NCBI GenBank assembly: GCA_020723385.1
Contig: DYIZ01000058.1
Coordinates: forward strand, 1 to 35,956
Length of the DNA stretch: 35,956 nt
Direction of reading: 5' to 3'
Source: Candidatus Aquidulcis sp.
GTDB taxonomy: Bacteria > Chloroflexota > Anaerolineae > Anaerolineales > UBA4823
Shown: piece after piece, positions 8,758 through 34,062 of the stretch
Layout: every line of letters begins with the position of its first letter
Numbering within the stretch: position 1 is the first letter of the stretch
Position numbers and translations under genes: made by a program
The notes under the pieces: generated by a model
Database searches by the model: none
Told to the model about the DNA's origin: nothing
The model's input: the letters and a program-made list of their open reading frames with translations, nothing else

Positions 8758-8872
8758 CGCGGAGGCCGCGAGGTGAAGGGCGAGGGCCGTGGGCCGAGAG
8801 CCGACCGCTGAAAGCTGCTATGCGGGCGGAGTCTACCACACACGACGATGGAGGGGGAGGGCTGGTTAAGCA

Positions 8873-8905
8873 AGACTTCCGAAGTCTTCGAGACTTCGGA
8901 AGTCT
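8873..8905. repeat. Nested perfect palindrome
   Basis: AGACTTCCGAAGTCT (8873-8887) pairs perfectly with AGACTTCGGAAGTCT (8891-8905) over the loop TCG, and each arm is itself palindromic around its middle base. It lies in the gap between mutS2 and the gene remnant, just downstream of the latter's stop. Confidence 0.85.
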
Positions 8906-8922
8906 GTTGGTTTGCAGGGCCG

Positions 8923-9132
8923 TTATTCGCCCGCCGTCTTCGGCTTGCGACCGCTGGAGGCTTTATATTCGGATTTCTTCTTCAGGCCGAGGGACTGGAC
9001 TTCGTTCGAGTCGTCGCCGTATTGGGCGATGATCTGGTCTTTGGCGCCGAGCATGGCGTTGTGGAAGGCCCATTCGGCGGCGTTGGCGGTGTCGCGGGCG
9101 GCTTCACCCAGATACTGAACAATTCGTATCAC
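8923..9132 (-). pseudogene. Probable 3' remnant of a native gene
   Basis: A 69-residue frame opening with GTG at 9132, which overlaps the stop of the AT-rich lipoprotein gene (GTGA). The protein, with AAEWAFHNAMLGAKDQI and a basic KKKSEYK tail, begins abruptly as if in the middle of a helix. Its GC-rich codon use differs sharply from the gene upstream. The simplest reading is a C-terminal fragment of a native small helical protein whose 5' part was replaced when the accessory block arrived. It could instead be a real translationally coupled small gene. No named family is recognised. Confidence 0.5.
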
Positions 9133-10715
9133 TTAAAGGGGCATATATCTTCCAAAACATAATCTCGTTCTTTTTGCCAGCCATGATAGATTATATGTCC
9201 CTCTTGTGTACAGCCCGTTATCACACTCACAAAATCGAATACGGTACACTGGTTTTGTGCCGTGTATTCTATCGCTTTTGCACAAGCAGATCCTATATCC
9301 TGAGAGGATTGATATTCAAGCCAGAAAGCCGACGCGAGTTCAGCAAAGATATGCCCTTCCTGCCCTTCTGGGAATTTTTCCTGCAATGTCTCATACACTG
9401 TCTTGGCGTCAGGCATCCATCCGCGAACCACGTGCAATAACATAATCCGGTATCGAGCATAGCCCGCCAGATTGTAATATTCCATATTATCAACAGGCAA
9501 AGGCGTGGGGGTTGGATCATGGGCATATTCCGCTTGCCATACCTGCATTTCGTGCCATGCACGTTCATCTGACCACCAGTCCAATTGATCGCTAAAAATC
9601 ACCTGTTGATATAGGTCAATCGCCTCATCGAAGTTGCCATCAAAAAAAGCATAGTCCGCATCTTGAATGGCCTGGAAATGATATTTCGGCGCATCCGGCT
9701 CCACGCCGTAAAGCACAAATCCTGCGCCATTCCACATATAGGTATCTGTCTCTGCACGCCAAGGACCATGCATATAAGTGTCTGGATGGACTGGTATTCC
9801 TCCTCGCATGACAAATTCCTGTGTGCCATTATTATCTATATCCCGTATCTCCCAATTACTATTGCCATCTACCCAAATATCCCCACCTGTTACACCTCCA
9901 CCCCCATACCGGCTCACAAAATCAGGTTGAATGACAAGGTTTTTGAACTGAAACCCATCCCATCCAAATATTTGATAAGTTGGATTTTGGTAAAGATTGA
10001 TGGTTGCATCGGCTTTGACAACGACTAACTCGTCCAGACCGTCCAAATTCATATCAGCATTAGCGATTATGCCAGACCCAGAGATGATTCCACCAGGATC
10101 TACCTTAAGATAAGTGCGATACTGCCCCTCATCACAACCGAAGATGTGAAGATAAGGTTTCGGAATAACCAACTCGAGGACCCCGTCATCTGTAACATCC
10201 TGCTCGTAGAAAAAATCTGCACGGGTTTCAAAATGTTGGGCGAAAGCTTCTATTACTGCTTGTCGTGTTCCCCCCTGGTCTAGGAAATCGCGTATCGGAG
10301 TTTCAATCTCAGGCTTTTCTGCATCGAATTCATCTCCAAATTGAAATCTCAAACCTGGATTTTCGTCAGGACATACGGCTGGCGCGGAGGGCGTGTGTGT
10401 AACTGCCAATGATGCATCATACGAGCCAGGAGGAAAGATCGTAAGAGTAGCAGATGGAGCGAGGGTGACTGTATAAGTAGGTTGTTTTGTTATTGTGGGA
10501 TTGACCGTTGGCGTTGAGGTGGGGATGATGACAGTCAATGACTTTACTGGGCTAGCGGTGGACTTTGGCGTTGGGGTAGACGCACCTAACGTTATAGCCG
10601 AAGTCGCACTCTGATCTAAAGATGGACGAATGGCAGTATCAGTAGGTAATGCATCTTTGATACCACATCCGACAGACAAGAAAGCAAGAAAAATCAATGG
10701 CGGAAACTTTTTCAT
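9129..10715 (-). CDS. Accessory lipoprotein with FG-GAP-like and TPR-like parts
   Basis: A predicted secreted lipoprotein of 528 residues. MKKFPPLIFLAFLSVGCG is a signal peptide with a slightly atypical lipobox (SVGC). A Thr/Pro/Ser-rich stretch follows to about residue 120, then a mixed domain with calcium-loop-like turns DMNLDGLDELVVV and DIDNNGTQEFVM, typical of FG-GAP/VCBS repeats, then a TPR-like helical region (YAFFDGNFDEAIDLYQQVI). The chosen start is the ATG at 10715; a GTG at 10775 would place 20 extra residues before the signal. AT-rich codons set it apart from mutS2. It is the last gene of the accessory block and ends at the remnant below. Confidence 0.72.
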   Translation of the reverse strand: MKKFPPLIFLAFLSVGCGIKDALPTDTAIRPSLDQSATSAITLGASTPTPKSTASPVKSLTVIIPTSTPTVNPTITKQPTYTVTLAPSATLTIFPPGSYDASLAVTHTPSAPAVCPDENPGLRFQFGDEFDAEKPEIETPIRDFLDQGGTRQAVIEAFAQHFETRADFFYEQDVTDDGVLELVIPKPYLHIFGCDEGQYRTYLKVDPGGIISGSGIIANADMNLDGLDELVVVKADATINLYQNPTYQIFGWDGFQFKNLVIQPDFVSRYGGGGVTGGDIWVDGNSNWEIRDIDNNGTQEFVMRGGIPVHPDTYMHGPWRAETDTYMWNGAGFVLYGVEPDAPKYHFQAIQDADYAFFDGNFDEAIDLYQQVIFSDQLDWWSDERAWHEMQVWQAEYAHDPTPTPLPVDNMEYYNLAGYARYRIMLLHVVRGWMPDAKTVYETLQEKFPEGQEGHIFAELASAFWLEYQSSQDIGSACAKAIEYTAQNQCTVFDFVSVITGCTQEGHIIYHGWQKERDYVLEDICPFK

Positions 10716-10783
10716 AACAAAGCATGACGATCTGGATTTGCAGTTTCCCACCAACGTATAGATAAACTTTTTCACGAATCACA

Positions 10784-10877
10784 CACCTTGTTGATACGCC
10801 TAACCCAATAACTCATTACCCAATTCGCTGGGCTCATCCTCACACCAGGGCGGTTGTGTCGTCAAGCAGATGTAGCG
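10784..10877. repeat. Diverged copy 1 of the accessory-block repeat
   Basis: CACCTTGTTGAT (10784-10795) matches 12071-12082 exactly. Further right, AGGGCGGTTGTGTCGTCAAG aligns with GGGGCGGGACTATCGTCAAG of the other copies. Aside from this, 10716-10960 holds no gene that I can support. Confidence 0.55.
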
Positions 10878-10960
10878 TCAACGGGCTTTCAAACATAGAA
10901 ACGGACAGGAACGGAGGCGGGGTCGCTTTGTCGGACGAAGGCACTTCTCCCATACCCTTG

Positions 10961-11413
10961 TCAGAAATGTGACCAAATCAATCGCAACTTACAGCCCAAG
11001 ATTTGTTCGAGTTTGCTTATGGATTGCTCGCCTAACTCAGGAATTCCAGGATTTCTGACTGTCAAAACAAATCGAGCGAAGCCTTGCGGGGAAATGTAGT
11101 CCAATTGATTTAGCGTAGTCTCCCTTCTGCAACAGGGAGCAATAACTTGCAGATCGCCAAATTGAGATTTGTACGCCTCATCCATTGCTTTTGACCACCA
11201 TTCGCCAGAAATTTCCTTTCCACACAAGGGGCAGAAAATACTTTCAGAATTTGCTCCTGCATTCACGAACTTTATCTTTTCGGAAAGTTCCGATGATACT
11301 TCACCTGTTTTACCAATGTGCGACTTCAGAAACCATTCTGCCGCCAACTGGGCTTCATGAATTGGGATGTAGTCGAGTTGTTCTGGGATCAAGCATAATA
11401 AGTTTTCAGACAT
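10961..11413 (-). CDS. Hypothetical protein with zinc-ribbon-like cysteines
   Basis: A 150-residue soluble protein that I do not recognise. It has a CPLCGKEI pair near residue 61 and a CCRRET pair near 94, spaced as a possible four-Cys zinc site. The N-terminal half (PIHEAQLAAEWFLKSHIG) and the tail (SISKLEQILGCKL) look helical. ATG at 11413 has no clear ribosome site. It is AT-rich like its neighbours and lies between two copies of the accessory-block repeat, suggesting acquisition as a single-gene unit. No function is proposed. Confidence 0.65.
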   Translation of the reverse strand: MSENLLCLIPEQLDYIPIHEAQLAAEWFLKSHIGKTGEVSSELSEKIKFVNAGANSESIFCPLCGKEISGEWWSKAMDEAYKSQFGDLQVIAPCCRRETTLNQLDYISPQGFARFVLTVRNPGIPELGEQSISKLEQILGCKLRLIWSHF

Positions 11414-11476
11414 GGCCGTAGTTATTCGCCTTTTTTGATAGCATTACCCATCATAACCTGTTGCCCACTCCTGCGT

Positions 11477-11586
11477 GCTCATTATCGCGCCGGGGCGGGA
11501 CTATCGTCAAGCGCGATGGGGTCGGCAGCGGATTGGGGCACGGATCACTGGATGGCCGCGGATGGCGGTTGCGCCGGGGCGGAGCG
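11477..11586. repeat. Accessory-block repeat, copy 2
   Basis: About 110 bp, starting GCTCATTATCGCGCC and including GACTATCGTCAAGCG and GTCGGCAGCGGAT, align with 12114-12224 with only scattered changes. It is GC-rich amid AT-rich genes. It fills most of the 211-bp gap between two accessory genes. Confidence 0.85.
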
Positions 11587-11624
11587 ACCGATTTACGAAA
11601 ATACGAAGCTCATGCCTGGCTCAA

Positions 11625-11990
11625 TCAATTAGCCGTTGGTTTACGATTATAGAATGTAAATAAGGCCATTTTTACCGCTAAACCGCTCAAAAACGCACTT
11701 GCCATTTCATCCCAACCAAAAAATGAAAATGTTTGTGGGGCAAACAAATAGACTGCAAAGCCCATCAGACCAATTGCGGAAAAGAAATAAACCAAAATCC
11801 GCTGCCGTGGGATAGACACCAAACAGTAAACAGCAATCCCGAAGCTAAAGATCGAAGCACAAAGCACAACTATTCTCGCGAAACCTGTTATACAAAGGGC
11901 AACTATACTTGTCCCAATCGCAATACTCGAAAGATAAAATTTCCAGTCCCATTTTTTAGAGCCTGTGAAGTTTAGCGTCTCAGGTTTCAT
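11625..11990 (-). CDS. Small membrane protein with about four helices
   Basis: A 121-residue hydrophobic protein that I do not recognise. After a short polar N-terminus there are about four membrane segments: IGTSIVALCITGFARIVVL, CASIFSFGIAVYCLVSI, ILVYFFSAIGLMGFAVYL and a last one in FLSGLAVKMALFTF. The start is ATG at 11990; the frame stays open to 12119, but that extra sequence lies within the repeat-derived leader. The gene is AT-rich, on the minus strand, between repeat copies 2 and 3. Confidence 0.62.
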   Translation of the reverse strand: MKPETLNFTGSKKWDWKFYLSSIAIGTSIVALCITGFARIVVLCASIFSFGIAVYCLVSIPRQRILVYFFSAIGLMGFAVYLFAPQTFSFFGWDEMASAFLSGLAVKMALFTFYNRKPTAN

Positions 11991-12070
11991 ATCCACCAAC
12001 CAAACAATTTTTTTGCTTGTACTGGCAAAGTGCTGATTGACGATTCGGTTGACTTTTCCATGAATACATG

Positions 12071-12245
12071 CACCTTGTTGATGTAACTCACAACTTATAG
12101 CCCAATCCCATATGCTCATTATCGCGCCGGGGCGGGACTATCGTCAAGCGGGATGGGGGTCGGCAGCGGATTTGGACACGGATCAACGGATGACCACGGA
12201 TGTCGGCGGCGGCGGGGCGGGGCGTTGGTCAAGCGGGATGGGGCA
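12071..12245. repeat. Accessory-block repeat, copy 3, with a partial second unit
   Basis: CACCTTGTTGAT at 12071 begins the copy. 12114-12224 matches copy 2, and 12212-12245 repeats GGGGCGGGG...GGTCAAGCGGGATGGGG a second time. The 531-bp stretch 11991-12521 contains this copy, three palindromes, a possible -10 and a heptamer-like tract, but no gene that I can support. Confidence 0.8.
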
Positions 12246-12273
12246 AGAAATCAGGTCTTTTCAAATACCCCCC

Positions 12274-12359
12274 GGCATCGGATGAATCCGACGCCTAAAA
12301 TCCCAGAAAACCCGCTTAAGCGGGTTTGGCGCTTTTGCAGACGCCGATTTCAATCGGCG
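12274..12359. repeat. Three adjacent palindromes
   Basis: GGCATCGGAT/ATCCGACGCC (12274-12295, one mismatch), AAACCCGCTTAAGCGGGTTT (12308-12327, perfect) and CGCCGATT-TC-AATCGGCG (12342-12359, perfect). They lie just outside the accessory block, upstream of the large secreted protein. Confidence 0.85.
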
Positions 12360-12410
12360 GCCTTTACACCCTTTTTACATCCCCGCAACACCCCCGTCAA
12401 ACCCCTCGGC

Positions 12411-12416
12411 TAGAAT
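12411..12416 (+). promoter_or_regulatory. Possible -10 (TAGAAT) for the large secreted protein
   Basis: Five of six bases match the -10 consensus. No matching -35 is seen. It would give a leader of about 100 nt carrying the CAAATC-type tract. Confidence 0.3.
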
Positions 12417-12431
12417 TTGAGCATCGGGCAA

Positions 12432-12500
12432 AGGCAGCAAATCGGCAAATGAACAAATCAGCAAATCACCCTGTCACCTTGCCACCCCGTAACCCAATCC
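12432..12500. repeat. Degenerate GCAAATC / CACCCTGT tandem tract
   Basis: Units such as GCAAATCGGCAAATGAACAAATCAGCAAATC and CACCCTGTCACCTTGCCACC precede the AAGGAG ribosome site of the next gene. Confidence 0.5.
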
Positions 12501-12521
12501 CCCAACAAAGGAGAATGTTCC

Positions 12522-15500
12522 ATGAAACGACCCCCTCACCTCTTCAACATCTGCGCCATCATCATCCTGCTGGTAGTTGCGCTGGGCGTGAGCAGCCCGG
12601 CGGCGGCCTCCCCCGACAGCGGGATGGTTACCGGAAACGTCACCTCGCCCGGCGGATACCCGCTCCCGGCGGGCACGCTCGTCCGCCTGTTCGATCCCAC
12701 CGGCGAGATAGTGCGCGGCACAGCAATTCCAAATCTCGATACCGGCGCGTTCAGCCTTGGCCCGCTTCACAATGGGATGTACGTGCTCAAAGCCGTCCCG
12801 CCCGAGATCAGCGGCTACACCCAATCGCTGCCCGCCGCCGTCTCGGTGGTCAACACCAACGTGGATGTCGGCAGCGTGGCGCTGACCACGCCGCAGTTCA
12901 CCGGGACGGTGTTCGCCCCGGATGGCATCACCCCCTCCCCGGCGGAGGTTTTCGTCCACCTGGGGGATGGGCGCATCCTTCAGCACATTGACGCCCCCGC
13001 CGGCCTGTTCGCCGTGGGCGGGCTGCCCCTCGGCGGGTACTGGCTGCAAGCCTACCCGGCCAGCGACGATCCCTTCTGGAAATCCGAGCGCCTCGATGTG
13101 ACCATCGCCGACCCCGGCATCGTGCAGCCCATCACGCTCACCCTGCGCGCCGCCGACCTGTGGGGCACGGTGACCGACAGCGAGGGCGCGCCCGTCGCGT
13201 GGGCCACCGTCTTCGCCGTCAACGGCGGCAATTACAAGAGCGATTTCAGCAGCGCCAGCGGATTTTGGGCGATTGGCGGGCTGGAACCCGGCGATTATCT
13301 GCTCACGGCGCGCCCGCCCTGGCTGCAATCCGGCCTGCTCCCGCCCGATATTATCACCGTCACCATCCCCACCGCCTCCAGCCCCTTTGACCTGGTTTTC
13401 AACATCCCGCCGAAGATCGTCTCCGGCGCGGTAACGACCAACACCGGCCTGCCCGTCGAAAACGCCCAAATCCTGGCGCACCGCATGAACCGCATCGGCT
13501 TTGCCGAGACGCTCACCGCCGCCGATGGGACGTACACGCTGACCCTGACCTCCGGGCTGTGGGCGCTCACCGTCAAACCCATCACCGGCACGCTGCCCGC
13601 CGACTGGGTCTACCCGCAGCCGCCGCAGCTCGTCTACTTCCAGCCCAACAACCAGCCCGAAGCCCGCACGCAGGATTTCACCGTCGTTCTGGCCGACGCC
13701 ACGGTGAGCGGCGCGGTGCTGCTGCCCGATGGCGTCACTCCGCCCGCCTTCACCGTCACCGTCTCGCTGCACAGCGACGAGGGCGTGGGGCGCAGTGTGG
13801 ATATCGCCCCCGATGGCTCATTCGACCTGACCCTGCCCAACGGCGATTACAAAGTAACCGTCTTTCCTCACGATGAAGGCTACGTTGGCCCGGCGGTGGA
13901 ACCGATCAACCTGCCTGTGAACGGGATTGTGGACTTGGGGACGCTGACCCTGCTGGCGCGTGATGCTGCCATCACCGGAACCGTGACTGCCGAGGGCGGC
14001 GCGGGGCTGGAGGGGATTCCCCTTCTCGCCTGGCGGCCCGGCGTCCCGGGGGGCTTGCGCGCCCTCTCTGGACCGGAGGGGGCCTACGTTCTCGCAGTGT
14101 CCGCTGGCGAATGGCACATCCAGCCCGCCCCCGCCGCCGACCAGCCCTATCTCTACACCGGCGCGGGCGCAGATGTAACCCTGGCGGCGGGCGGCGTCAT
14201 CTCGGATGTCAACTTCAGCCTGCTGCCCGCCGACGCCGCCATCAACGGCGTGCTGGTCACCGAAGCTGGCCTGCCAGCCGCCGACGCTGAAGGCTGGGGC
14301 GCGGCGAGCAACGTGACCGATCCGGCCATTCACAACGGCGCGCCCATCCAAAACGGCGTGTTCTCCATCCTCGTCCCGGCCGGCGATTATCACGTGGCTG
14401 CCATCCTGCCCGCTGGCAGCCACTACACCTCTGCCGCCGAGCAATTGGTGAGCGTCGCTTCGGGTGAGACCGTCACCATCACCATGACCGTGCAGGTGAA
14501 AGACGCGGCCATCCGCGGCGCGCTGTGGGACCCGCGTAACGAAGATGTGGTGGAAGGCGTGGCGGGCCTGGTCACGGCGTGGACGCCCGGCAACTGGGTG
14601 GCTGCGCCCATCGAGACCGGCAACGGCACATACAGGCTGGATATCGCCGCCGGGCTGTGGCAGTTGAACTACCGCATTGACCCCGACGCCGGTTACGCCA
14701 AGCTGCTCGGGCCGCGCAACGTCCCCGTCGCTTCGGGTGACACGGCCTACCTCGCCCTGCCCATCGTCCCGAAAGATGCCGCTATCAGCGGGACGGTCTA
14801 CGCCCCCGATGGCAGCCCGCTGCCCGGCGCGACGGTGCTGGCGAAGGCCGTGGATGGCCCGGCGTTCAACCTGTGGCTGCAAACCCGCACGGATGAGAAC
14901 GGCGCATTCACGCTGGCCGTCCCCTACGGGCGTTTCCGTCTCGGCGCGGCCGGCGGCGACTCGGCGTGGGTCAACCCGGTCGAAAAGCTGGTCGAAGTCC
15001 TGCCCGGCCAGACTTCCTCCGGCCACGCGCTGCATTTCCAACTGCCCGACGCCACGTTGAGCGGCACGCTCACCGTGAGCAACACGGTTACGGCTGGCGA
15101 GGCGCTGGTGTGGGCCTGGTCGGATGAGGGCGGCTTCACCCGCGGGCGTTTCCCGGTCTCGCTGGATGGCGGCAATGCCAGCGGCCCGTACAGCCTGGAT
15201 GTGATCTCGAACACCACCTGGCACATGGGAGCAGCCTTCGAGACCGAGAGCGAGTATTGGCTGGGTCAGGCCGTAATCCCGATGGGGAGCAGCAGCGCCG
15301 TGCAGGACATCACCCTCGTCGGGCCGTTCCCTAAACCGGCCCCAGTGGTAGTCACCTTCGACGCCGCCGACCCGCAGACAATCACGCTGGCCGACGGGAC
15401 GAGTATCTACATCCCCGGGGGGGCTATGCCCGCTACCGGATTGGTCACGCTGCGTATCGTGCCCATCGCCGAGATGCCCCGCCAGGCGCACGCCAACGTG

Positions 15501-32814: not shown

Positions 32815-34062
32815 ATGTCACCTATCTCTCTGCTACCGAAGATTCCAATCTCCCTGCTCATTTTTGGAACAGTAATAAGTATAACAATTGTCATTGCTTT
32901 GTCTCCTCACCCAACAGCCAGCCAAGAAATGATACAAATGCCTTTAAGTTGGCAAATCCAAATAGTGGATAGTGGGAATGTAACTGGACCTACCTACTTG
33001 ATGCTTGATAGCAATGGGTATCCAAAAATTGCTTATATCGAGAGGACTACACCGGCTTATAATCTTAAATATGCAAGTTGGAATGGCCAATTTTGGGAAT
33101 TCACGACCGTGGACGATTGTACATGCATAGGAACAGGCAGTGTGTCTTTAGCTCTAGATAATGCCGATGAACCACATATCAGTTATCACAATTATACAAA
33201 CAACACCCTTAAATATGCCCAATTAGTAAACGGAAATTGGGTCATAGAAACTGTAGACAGTAGTTCGGCAGGAAGCGGGAATTTTATAATCCTCGATGCT
33301 AATAACAACCCTCATATCGTATATTTTGCACAAGAAGGCGATCTGAAATATGCTCATTATCAAGAATCTGCTTGGAGTTATCAACTTATCGAATCCCATG
33401 CAATGCCGACCCCCATCTCACATGAAATAAGTCTAGCGATAAATAGCTTAGGGTTACTCGGTGTTAGCTATCCATCTCAAGAATACAAACTAAAATATGC
33501 TCATCAGTTAGATAACGGTGAATGGGTAATTCAAGTCGTGAACGATGTTGATGGCTTATTGACTTCTCTGGTATTTGATAACCAAGATTACCCACATATC
33601 GTAATTGACGAAAATGAAATTAGGTATGTGAAATGGACAGGGAACAGTTGGGATATTCAAATTGTAGATTCGGGATTTCTTGGCTCTCTCGCTTTGGACA
33701 ATGCAGGTTATCCTGCGATCAGTTATTATCGTATTGGGTTGAGATTTGCTTACTGGGTCGGAAACGAGTGGGATATTCACACCGTAGATGGTTCTCAAGC
33801 GGTAGGCTATGACTCATCTCTGTTCATTGACAGCGAAAATCATCCTCACATCAGTTATATTGATAGCAATAATAGAGACTTAAAATACGCGGTAGGTGTT
33901 TTGCCACCCTCACCAACCGCTACGAGCACTCCCTTGCTTACTCAAACAGCCACTCCTACGGCCACAACGACATCATTTCCAACCATCACTACCACGCCAT
34001 CGCCCACCGCCATCCCCGAGTCGTCCCCATCTTTCTATTTCTTACCCATAATCCAAAATTAA
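32815..34062 (+). CDS. AT-rich secreted beta-propeller-like repeat protein
   Basis: A 415-residue exported protein that I do not assign to a named enzyme family. An N-terminal hydrophobic segment (LLIFGTVISITIVIALS) serves as signal peptide. Residues about 45-355 hold roughly seven repeats of about 45 residues, each with LKYA..., W...VD/V, S.ALD...., and PHISY, a propeller-like pattern. Then come a Thr/Pro linker and the tail SFYFLPIIQN. AGGAAG lies six bases before ATG. The codons are AT-rich while both neighbours are GC-rich, which points to acquisition from another source. A surface-binding role is likely. Confidence 0.78.
   Translation: MSPISLLPKIPISLLIFGTVISITIVIALSPHPTASQEMIQMPLSWQIQIVDSGNVTGPTYLMLDSNGYPKIAYIERTTPAYNLKYASWNGQFWEFTTVDDCTCIGTGSVSLALDNADEPHISYHNYTNNTLKYAQLVNGNWVIETVDSSSAGSGNFIILDANNNPHIVYFAQEGDLKYAHYQESAWSYQLIESHAMPTPISHEISLAINSLGLLGVSYPSQEYKLKYAHQLDNGEWVIQVVNDVDGLLTSLVFDNQDYPHIVIDENEIRYVKWTGNSWDIQIVDSGFLGSLALDNAGYPAISYYRIGLRFAYWVGNEWDIHTVDGSQAVGYDSSLFIDSENHPHISYIDSNNRDLKYAVGVLPPSPTATSTPLLTQTATPTATTTSFPTITTTPSPTAIPESSPSFYFLPIIQN

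Follow-up and report, generated by a model that had tools for sequence, protein, structure and literature searches.

Three copies of a putative promoter-leader module at a cassette-like block of AT-rich genes in Candidatus Aquidulcis sp.

Promoter propagation places near-identical upstream regions before unrelated genes within one genome, and such mobile promoters are said to have been treated by Matus-Garcia, Nijveen and van Passel in 2012. Propagated promoters are a kind described in the literature, as far as the available part of a citing paper goes (PMC9208149). Integrons in Chloroflexota are already in print, according to the portions available of PMC9668308 and PMC8618304, and the integrase and attC sites reported here are therefore not new as a kind. 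The sections available of two other papers describe gene-less integron cassettes carrying promoters in Vibrio (PMC11014356) and abundant intergenic TAACTGA direct repeats in Beggiatoaceae (PMC4679880). We analyzed a stretch of 35,956 nucleotides (nt) of Candidatus Aquidulcis sp. (the window; contig DYIZ01000058.1, here C165), in which three AT-rich genes and three GC-rich repeats alternate on the minus strand; an original prediction, made from the sequence alone, had likened this block to integron cassettes. The repeats are probably copies of one promoter-leader module that precedes each gene, as judged from their sequence and position, and not integron recombination sites. Coordinates are window positions, and other C-numbers denote other contigs of the same genome. 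Because the assembly is split over 239 contigs with an estimated contamination of 4.5%, a contig may possibly come from another organism.

Read on the minus strand from 12270 to 8923, the block consists of module 3, gene A, module 2, gene B, module 1, gene C and an open reading frame (ORF) of 69 amino acids (aa). The called ORFs of the three genes (9129-10775, 10961-11413 and 11625-12119) all lie on that strand, with GC fractions of 0.402 for gene A, 0.431 for gene B and 0.456 for gene C, whereas mutS2 in the same window has 0.649. Each module copy is directly 5' of a same-strand gene, gene C has no repeat after it, and the modules are regularly spaced at 637-645 nt. Copy 3 (12071-12224, minus strand, as are the others) comprises an ATCCGTG-type repeat, TTGACG at 12147-12142, an 18-nt spacer, GATAAT at 12123-12118 and a leader with AAGGTG, and scores 98.3 bits with the module model described below. 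Copy 2 (11427-11586; 97.1 bits) has TTGACG at 11510-11505 and GATAAT at 11486-11481, again 18 nt apart, and a leader with AAGGCG. Copy 1 (10779-10915; 86.3 bits) is decayed, with TTGACG at 10865-10860, an 18-nt spacer, GAGGAT at 10841-10836 and AAGGTG in its leader.

Copies 2 and 3 are alike over 11451-11586 and 12088-12224, ~137 nt at 84-86% identity and slightly longer than the ~110 bp originally predicted, and a ~38-nt block containing both hexamers is identical between them. Copies 1 and 3 have CACCTTGTTGAT in common at 10784-10795 and 12071-12082, and, in agreement with the prediction that they match from there up to the gene, the likeness extends through the start codon (TTCRTGRAAAAGT, minus strand). 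The similarity of the copies is beyond chance, though copy 1 is much diverged: local alignment scores were 162 (3 versus 2), 56 (3 versus 1) and 39 (2 versus 1), and the respective maxima in 300 mononucleotide shuffles per pair were 32, 29 and 23. No inverted repeats flank the modules, and no transposase was noted among the window ORFs, in which no dedicated transposase search was made.

The promoter-like sites at 12147-12118 and 11510-11481 score 10/12 and are on the strand of the genes. In an alignment of five copies (the three in the window, one before gyrA and one on C63) the sequence GCTTGAC is invariant, and the spacers of the eight tabulated sites measure 16, 17, 17, 17, 18, 18, 18 and 18 nt. 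Past the promoter core, a leader of ~40 nt is followed by ATCAACAAGGTG (ATCAAAAAAGGCG in copy 2), in which AAGGYG is likely a ribosome-binding site. The alignment suggests that the module itself supplies a start codon. In copy 1 this codon shares the frame of gene C, in copy 3 it opens a short ORF that overlaps gene A, and in copy 2 it lies just before gene B. The array has the sequence features of a propagated promoter, namely similar upstream DNA before non-homologous genes and hexamers 16-18 nt apart on the gene strand.

The module also occurs elsewhere in the genome. A sequence-only model built from five copies gave full-length matches of 57.6-98.3 bits at C165 (three), C63 (77.5 bits) and C32, before gyrA (57.6 bits); all five are the model's own building blocks, and nearly all remaining matches were partial and weak. 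Since 150 of 1072 candidates were scored, counts from this search are lower bounds. The C63 module precedes another AT-rich gene, the ORF of which contains an in-frame stop and may be broken. The module is separable into an ATCCGTG-type intergenic repeat, present at ~20 places at least, and a promoter core, which alone, without the ATCCGTG part, precedes genes at C86 and C113. The core pattern CTTGACN{10,16}GCGCGAYAAT has five matches in this genome (C63, C86, C113 and two on C165), all intergenic with the next ORF in the same direction, and one match in each of 6 of 60 relatives, two of these six being inside ORFs. The reversed pattern, used as a control, gave none in the own genome and two matches across the 61 genomes. 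The ORFs that follow the five own core sites have GC fractions of 0.40, 0.43, 0.42, 0.43 and 0.50, and of 57 background ORFs, taken from 21 further loci in this genome, none was below 0.47 and three were below 0.505. Counted by locus, the next gene is of low GC in 3 of 4 cases versus 0 of 57 (Fisher p = 1.1e-4), or in 3 of 5 when gyrA is included (p = 2.6e-4). A link between repeat copies elsewhere and AT-rich genes, on which the original prediction turned, is seen at C63 and, for the core only, at C113, but gyrA does not follow it.

Several observations weigh against this interpretation. The region shows no general excess of promoter-like sites (8, with a mean of 5.3 in shuffles), and the promoter case therefore depends on how the sites are conserved and where they lie. 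As hexamers, GATAAT and TTGACG are good without being perfect, and the -10 sequence is GAGGAT in copy 1 and AAGATT in the gyrA copy. Since gyrA itself is GC-rich (0.614) and lies behind a module copy, the link between the module and AT-rich genes is not strict. The 57-ORF background is small and non-random and excludes the AT-rich integron cassettes of the genome. The ATCCGTG part alone occurs at many intergenic places with unclear orientation (within 300 nt, 7 gene heads and 5 gene tails), and part of the repeat is therefore not promoter-specific.

In the mechanism that we propose, the module would have three parts: the dispersed ATCCGTG-type repeat lies upstream, a sigma-70-type promoter (TTGACG, 18 nt, GATAAT) comes next, and a leader bearing a ribosome-binding site follows. 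Its position directly 5' of three unrelated, AT-rich, acquired-looking genes would allow each to be driven as its own transcript. Transcription by the housekeeping RNA polymerase would begin ~7 nt past the -10 box, with ribosome loading at AAGGYG near the start codon of the module. Copying of the module, either together with the genes or onto them, would probably have involved ordinary duplication, or recombination between copies, and no integron integrase. Homologous recombination between modules would be sufficient to gain or lose a unit, and the window would demand no special recombinase. A bolder proposal, which we consider a long shot, is that the module provides a second, integrase-free capture route, in which incoming AT-rich genes would recombine at module copies and each be expressed immediately as a separate unit; the window would then represent a growing row, with more captures at C63 and perhaps at C113 and C86.

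Two covariance models were used in searching for attC. Model R2 was built from 19 attC sites at seven loci of other genomes (the IntI loci of relatives); their consensus fold has 20 pairs, in 11 of which both partners are changed in one or more sequences, and the model detects attC in loci outside its building set (L099, L083, L054, L052, L053 and L062). Model R3 was built from 9 attC sites of the window's own genome and scores its own members at 70.7-100.4 bits and attC of Chloroflexi loci outside its training set at up to 88 bits. Neither model detected attC in the window. With R2 there was no attC at E <= 1, and the best match with filters off reached 7.7 bits; with R3, the best match in 8800-12700 with filters off was 5.2 bits, and an unrelated stretch used as a control scored higher, at 10.7 bits. 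Genuine attC sites, serving as positive controls, score 27-100 bits. No RYYYAAC...GTTRRRY pair at a spacing of 50-180 nt was present on either strand of 9001-12500, which is weak evidence by itself because 200 shuffles average only 0.7. The GTTAGGC that had been read as a fitting attC end is present at 10804 on the minus strand, without a partner site. Among genuine attC sites, that of C180 folds into one clean hairpin, that of C214 largely so and that of C177 in its inner part only; the modules show no attC-like hairpin fold.

An attC site in the window was rejected on these grounds, both models scoring below the range of real sites and neither an R''/R' pair nor an attC-like fold being found. 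Identity as an integron cassette array or a cluster of attC sites lacking integron-integrases (CALIN) was also rejected, there being no attC with R''/R' and L''/L' boxes and the repeats being 5', not 3', of the genes. What stands of the original prediction is a block of single, acquired-looking genes in one orientation with one repeat each; the integron cassette reading of that block fails because attC is missing and the repeats are not 3' of the genes.

The genome does contain an integron integrase, at C105:5778-6746 (TIGR02249, 451.5 bits versus a cut-off of 265), within an intact ORF that extends to 6755 and encodes 325 aa. The original prediction had seen no integrase, and the whole-genome IntI search listed no match on the window's contig. 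No recombinase was noted among the window ORFs, in which no dedicated recombinase search was made. The best 80 relatives of IntI are largely from Chloroflexi metagenome-assembled genomes, and several of these 80 carry attC arrays as identified by a box-and-arm detector. No attC was found on C105. Elsewhere in the genome R2 revealed at least seven attC sites of 27-52 bits, on C180, C214, C202, C177 (two), C71 and C192, and weaker additional sites adjoin some of them; this search scored 150 of 3995 candidates, and its counts are lower bounds. The sites, on six contigs and with mostly AT-rich cassettes, are at L174:946-2958, L177:5426-7302, L175:8643-8768, L176:8785-8906, L178:12493-12606 and L179:5932-6057, and those on C180, C214 and C71 are near contig ends. 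This distribution suggests a fragmented or scattered chromosomal integron. The integron interpretation suited the genome, not this block.

Two further features of this integron were recorded. The C105 integrase adjoins a pyruvate-kinase-like gene (named by eye), and a second IntI-like recombinase there is cut by the contig end. In the C71 attC (L178:12493-12606), CTGACT, 17 nt and TATAAT follow one another in sense, such that the L'' box might also serve as a -35 box. A promoter embedded in attC as a lineage-wide trait was not supported, as [GT]ATAAT was found in sense at 2 of the 10 own sites and at 1 of the 35 other sites, and in antisense at 1 of 10 and 1 of 35, respectively.

Gene A (11625-11990, minus strand) has a likely start at 11990, the called start at 12119 falling within the -10 region of module copy 3, and would encode a hydrophobic protein of 121 aa that by eye has the look of a membrane protein. 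The ATG of copy 3 opens a possible 24-aa leader ORF (11987-12061, minus strand), the putative translation of which would end at a stop overlapping the likely gene A start at 11990 (ATGA). Gene B (10961-11413, minus strand) encodes 150 aa with CPLCG and CC motifs and belongs to a widespread family of hypothetical proteins. Gene C (9129-10775, minus strand) is lipoprotein-like with FG-GAP/TPR-like features; its signal peptide (by eye) opens at ATG 10715, and the upstream GTG at 10775, supplied by module copy 1, is in frame. For none of the three did a family match exceed a curated cut-off, and tblastn of the three proteins found no match among them.

Gene B looks horizontally acquired by sequence comparison. 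Among 101 genomes (the own and 100 relatives) it is in the own only, and it matches 15 plasmid records at less than 60% identity, the best-ranked at 34% over 99%, from Streptomyces, Cupriavidus, Embleya, Streptantibioticus, Rhizobium and Mycobacterium. Gene A, with two weak partial matches across the 100 relatives, probably looks acquired as well. For gene C the evidence is mixed. Its paralogues on C141, C137 and C135 have GC fractions of 0.51-0.55; no attC was present within the sequence examined at these loci, and no module was apparent by eye in the stretch just upstream of the C141 paralogue. Gene C is also remotely related to a lipoprotein-like protein of the attC-bearing C71 cassette (hhalign 97.7%, E 1.7e-12, 22% identity), a score that low-complexity linkers may raise. 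A phage origin of genes A, B and C was rejected, with no relative in viral contigs and weak matches only in PHROGs and PADLOC.

Partial ATCCGTG matches at ~20 mostly intergenic places are what would be expected if the copies chiefly belonged to a family of repeats dispersed in intergenic DNA, three members of which had been inserted or conserved in the block, with incidental promoters. What the copies have kept best, however, is the -35/-10 core together with the leader and not the ATCCGTG part, and the core is found elsewhere without that part. The dispersed family therefore accounts for the ATCCGTG part only, and as an explanation of the block we regard it as unlikely. If one ancestral promoter-gene unit had been duplicated in tandem, and its coding parts had later been replaced or had diverged past recognition, the regular module spacing and the common surroundings of the start codons would be explained, but the genes are unlike in length and kind. 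Because genes B and C are from different families, common descent of the coding parts is unlikely, although genes may have been replaced; overall, we give duplication a poor chance.

Former integron cassettes with decayed attC, or with variant attC missed by the models, are a highly improbable source of the block and largely refuted. In their favor, the genome harbors IntI as well as attC cassettes, a remote relationship links the gene C family with the cassette protein of C71, and module ends (TGAGC N8 then TTGGGY or GTGGGC) were noted post hoc to resemble the ends of some own attC sites (TGAGC N7 then TTGGGC). Against this, the best window scores of both models with filters off remain far from those of genuine sites, the R3 score being below that of the control stretch, no attC-like fold is present, the repeats are 5' of the genes, and the same module precedes gyrA. 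Copies of one promoter-leader module are probably the better description of the three repeats.

Further features were noted in and around the block. A weak extra partial module (ATCCCGCTTGACC...; 12209-12258, minus strand; 12.6 bits, and 12.5 bits over 12209-12256 in a second scan) is directly upstream of copy 3, and C63 has a comparable one upstream. The 69-aa ORF (8923-9132, minus strand; GC 0.594), the GTG start of which overlaps the gene C stop, may represent the end of an older gene that was truncated at the edge of the block; it has no relative among 60 relatives, and no reading frame matching its N-terminal half was seen by eye upstream of the block. Just past it, at 8873-8905, is a perfect 15-bp inverted repeat with a 3-nt loop (AGACTTCCGAAGTCT). 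Another AT-rich gene, at 32815-34062 (GC 0.413), starts 16 nt past the preceding ORF and hence is without a module; a relative (~37% identity) is on C120, beside a GTCCGTT-type repeat. No tRNA target was found in the window, and in 8800-12700 no Rfam match reached the gathering score; the 4 matches below it all begin at position 12257 or further on, which places them outside the actual module copies.

Elsewhere in the genome, the dispersed ATCCG(T/C)(G/T) intergenic repeat (loci L131-L151; e.g. C234:14405-14616 and C28:6599-7336) often terminates in ATCCGYTGCCGAC, sometimes with a TATAAT-like box shortly past it, and a GTCCGTT variant occurs at C120, C60 and C194. The core copies at C63 (L001:4442-5111) and C113 (L164:859-1465) are each directly behind a toxin-antitoxin-like pair, the pairs near core copies being a nucleotidyltransferase-like with a HepT-like gene and a PIN protein with a small upstream ORF.

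The case is an ordinary to mildly interesting one of promoter re-use before acquired genes, together with a clean attC negative and a fragmented integron in the same genome. An array resembling integron cassettes can arise from re-used promoters, and the block is an attC-free contrast within an integron-bearing genome. If the module enables expression of AT-rich acquired genes in a GC-rich host, module-bearing, attC-bearing and bare acquired genes could be compared within one genome, which would make testable how foreign genes obtain promoters.

A literature search, judged by title and covering few subscription papers, found no description of such a promoter-leader module. In common with the Vibrio promoter cassettes, promoters are interspersed among acquired genes, but those in Vibrio are inside integron cassettes, in the part of PMC11014356 available, and no attC is present here. 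The TAACTGA repeats of Beggiatoaceae resemble the ATCCGTG part in being short and dispersed in intergenic DNA; they differ in sequence, and the available part of PMC4679880 reports no promoter core. Like an integron cassette array, the block has single AT-rich genes in one orientation with one repeat per gene, in a genome with IntI and attC cassettes on other contigs, whereas it lacks attC, has the repeat 5' of each gene and none after the last, and shares its module with gyrA. Promoter propagation has in common with it the near-identical upstream regions before unrelated genes of one genome. Here, with no insertion sequence noted beside them, the copies are tandem, include a leader and ribosome site, and lie mostly before AT-rich, acquired-looking genes.

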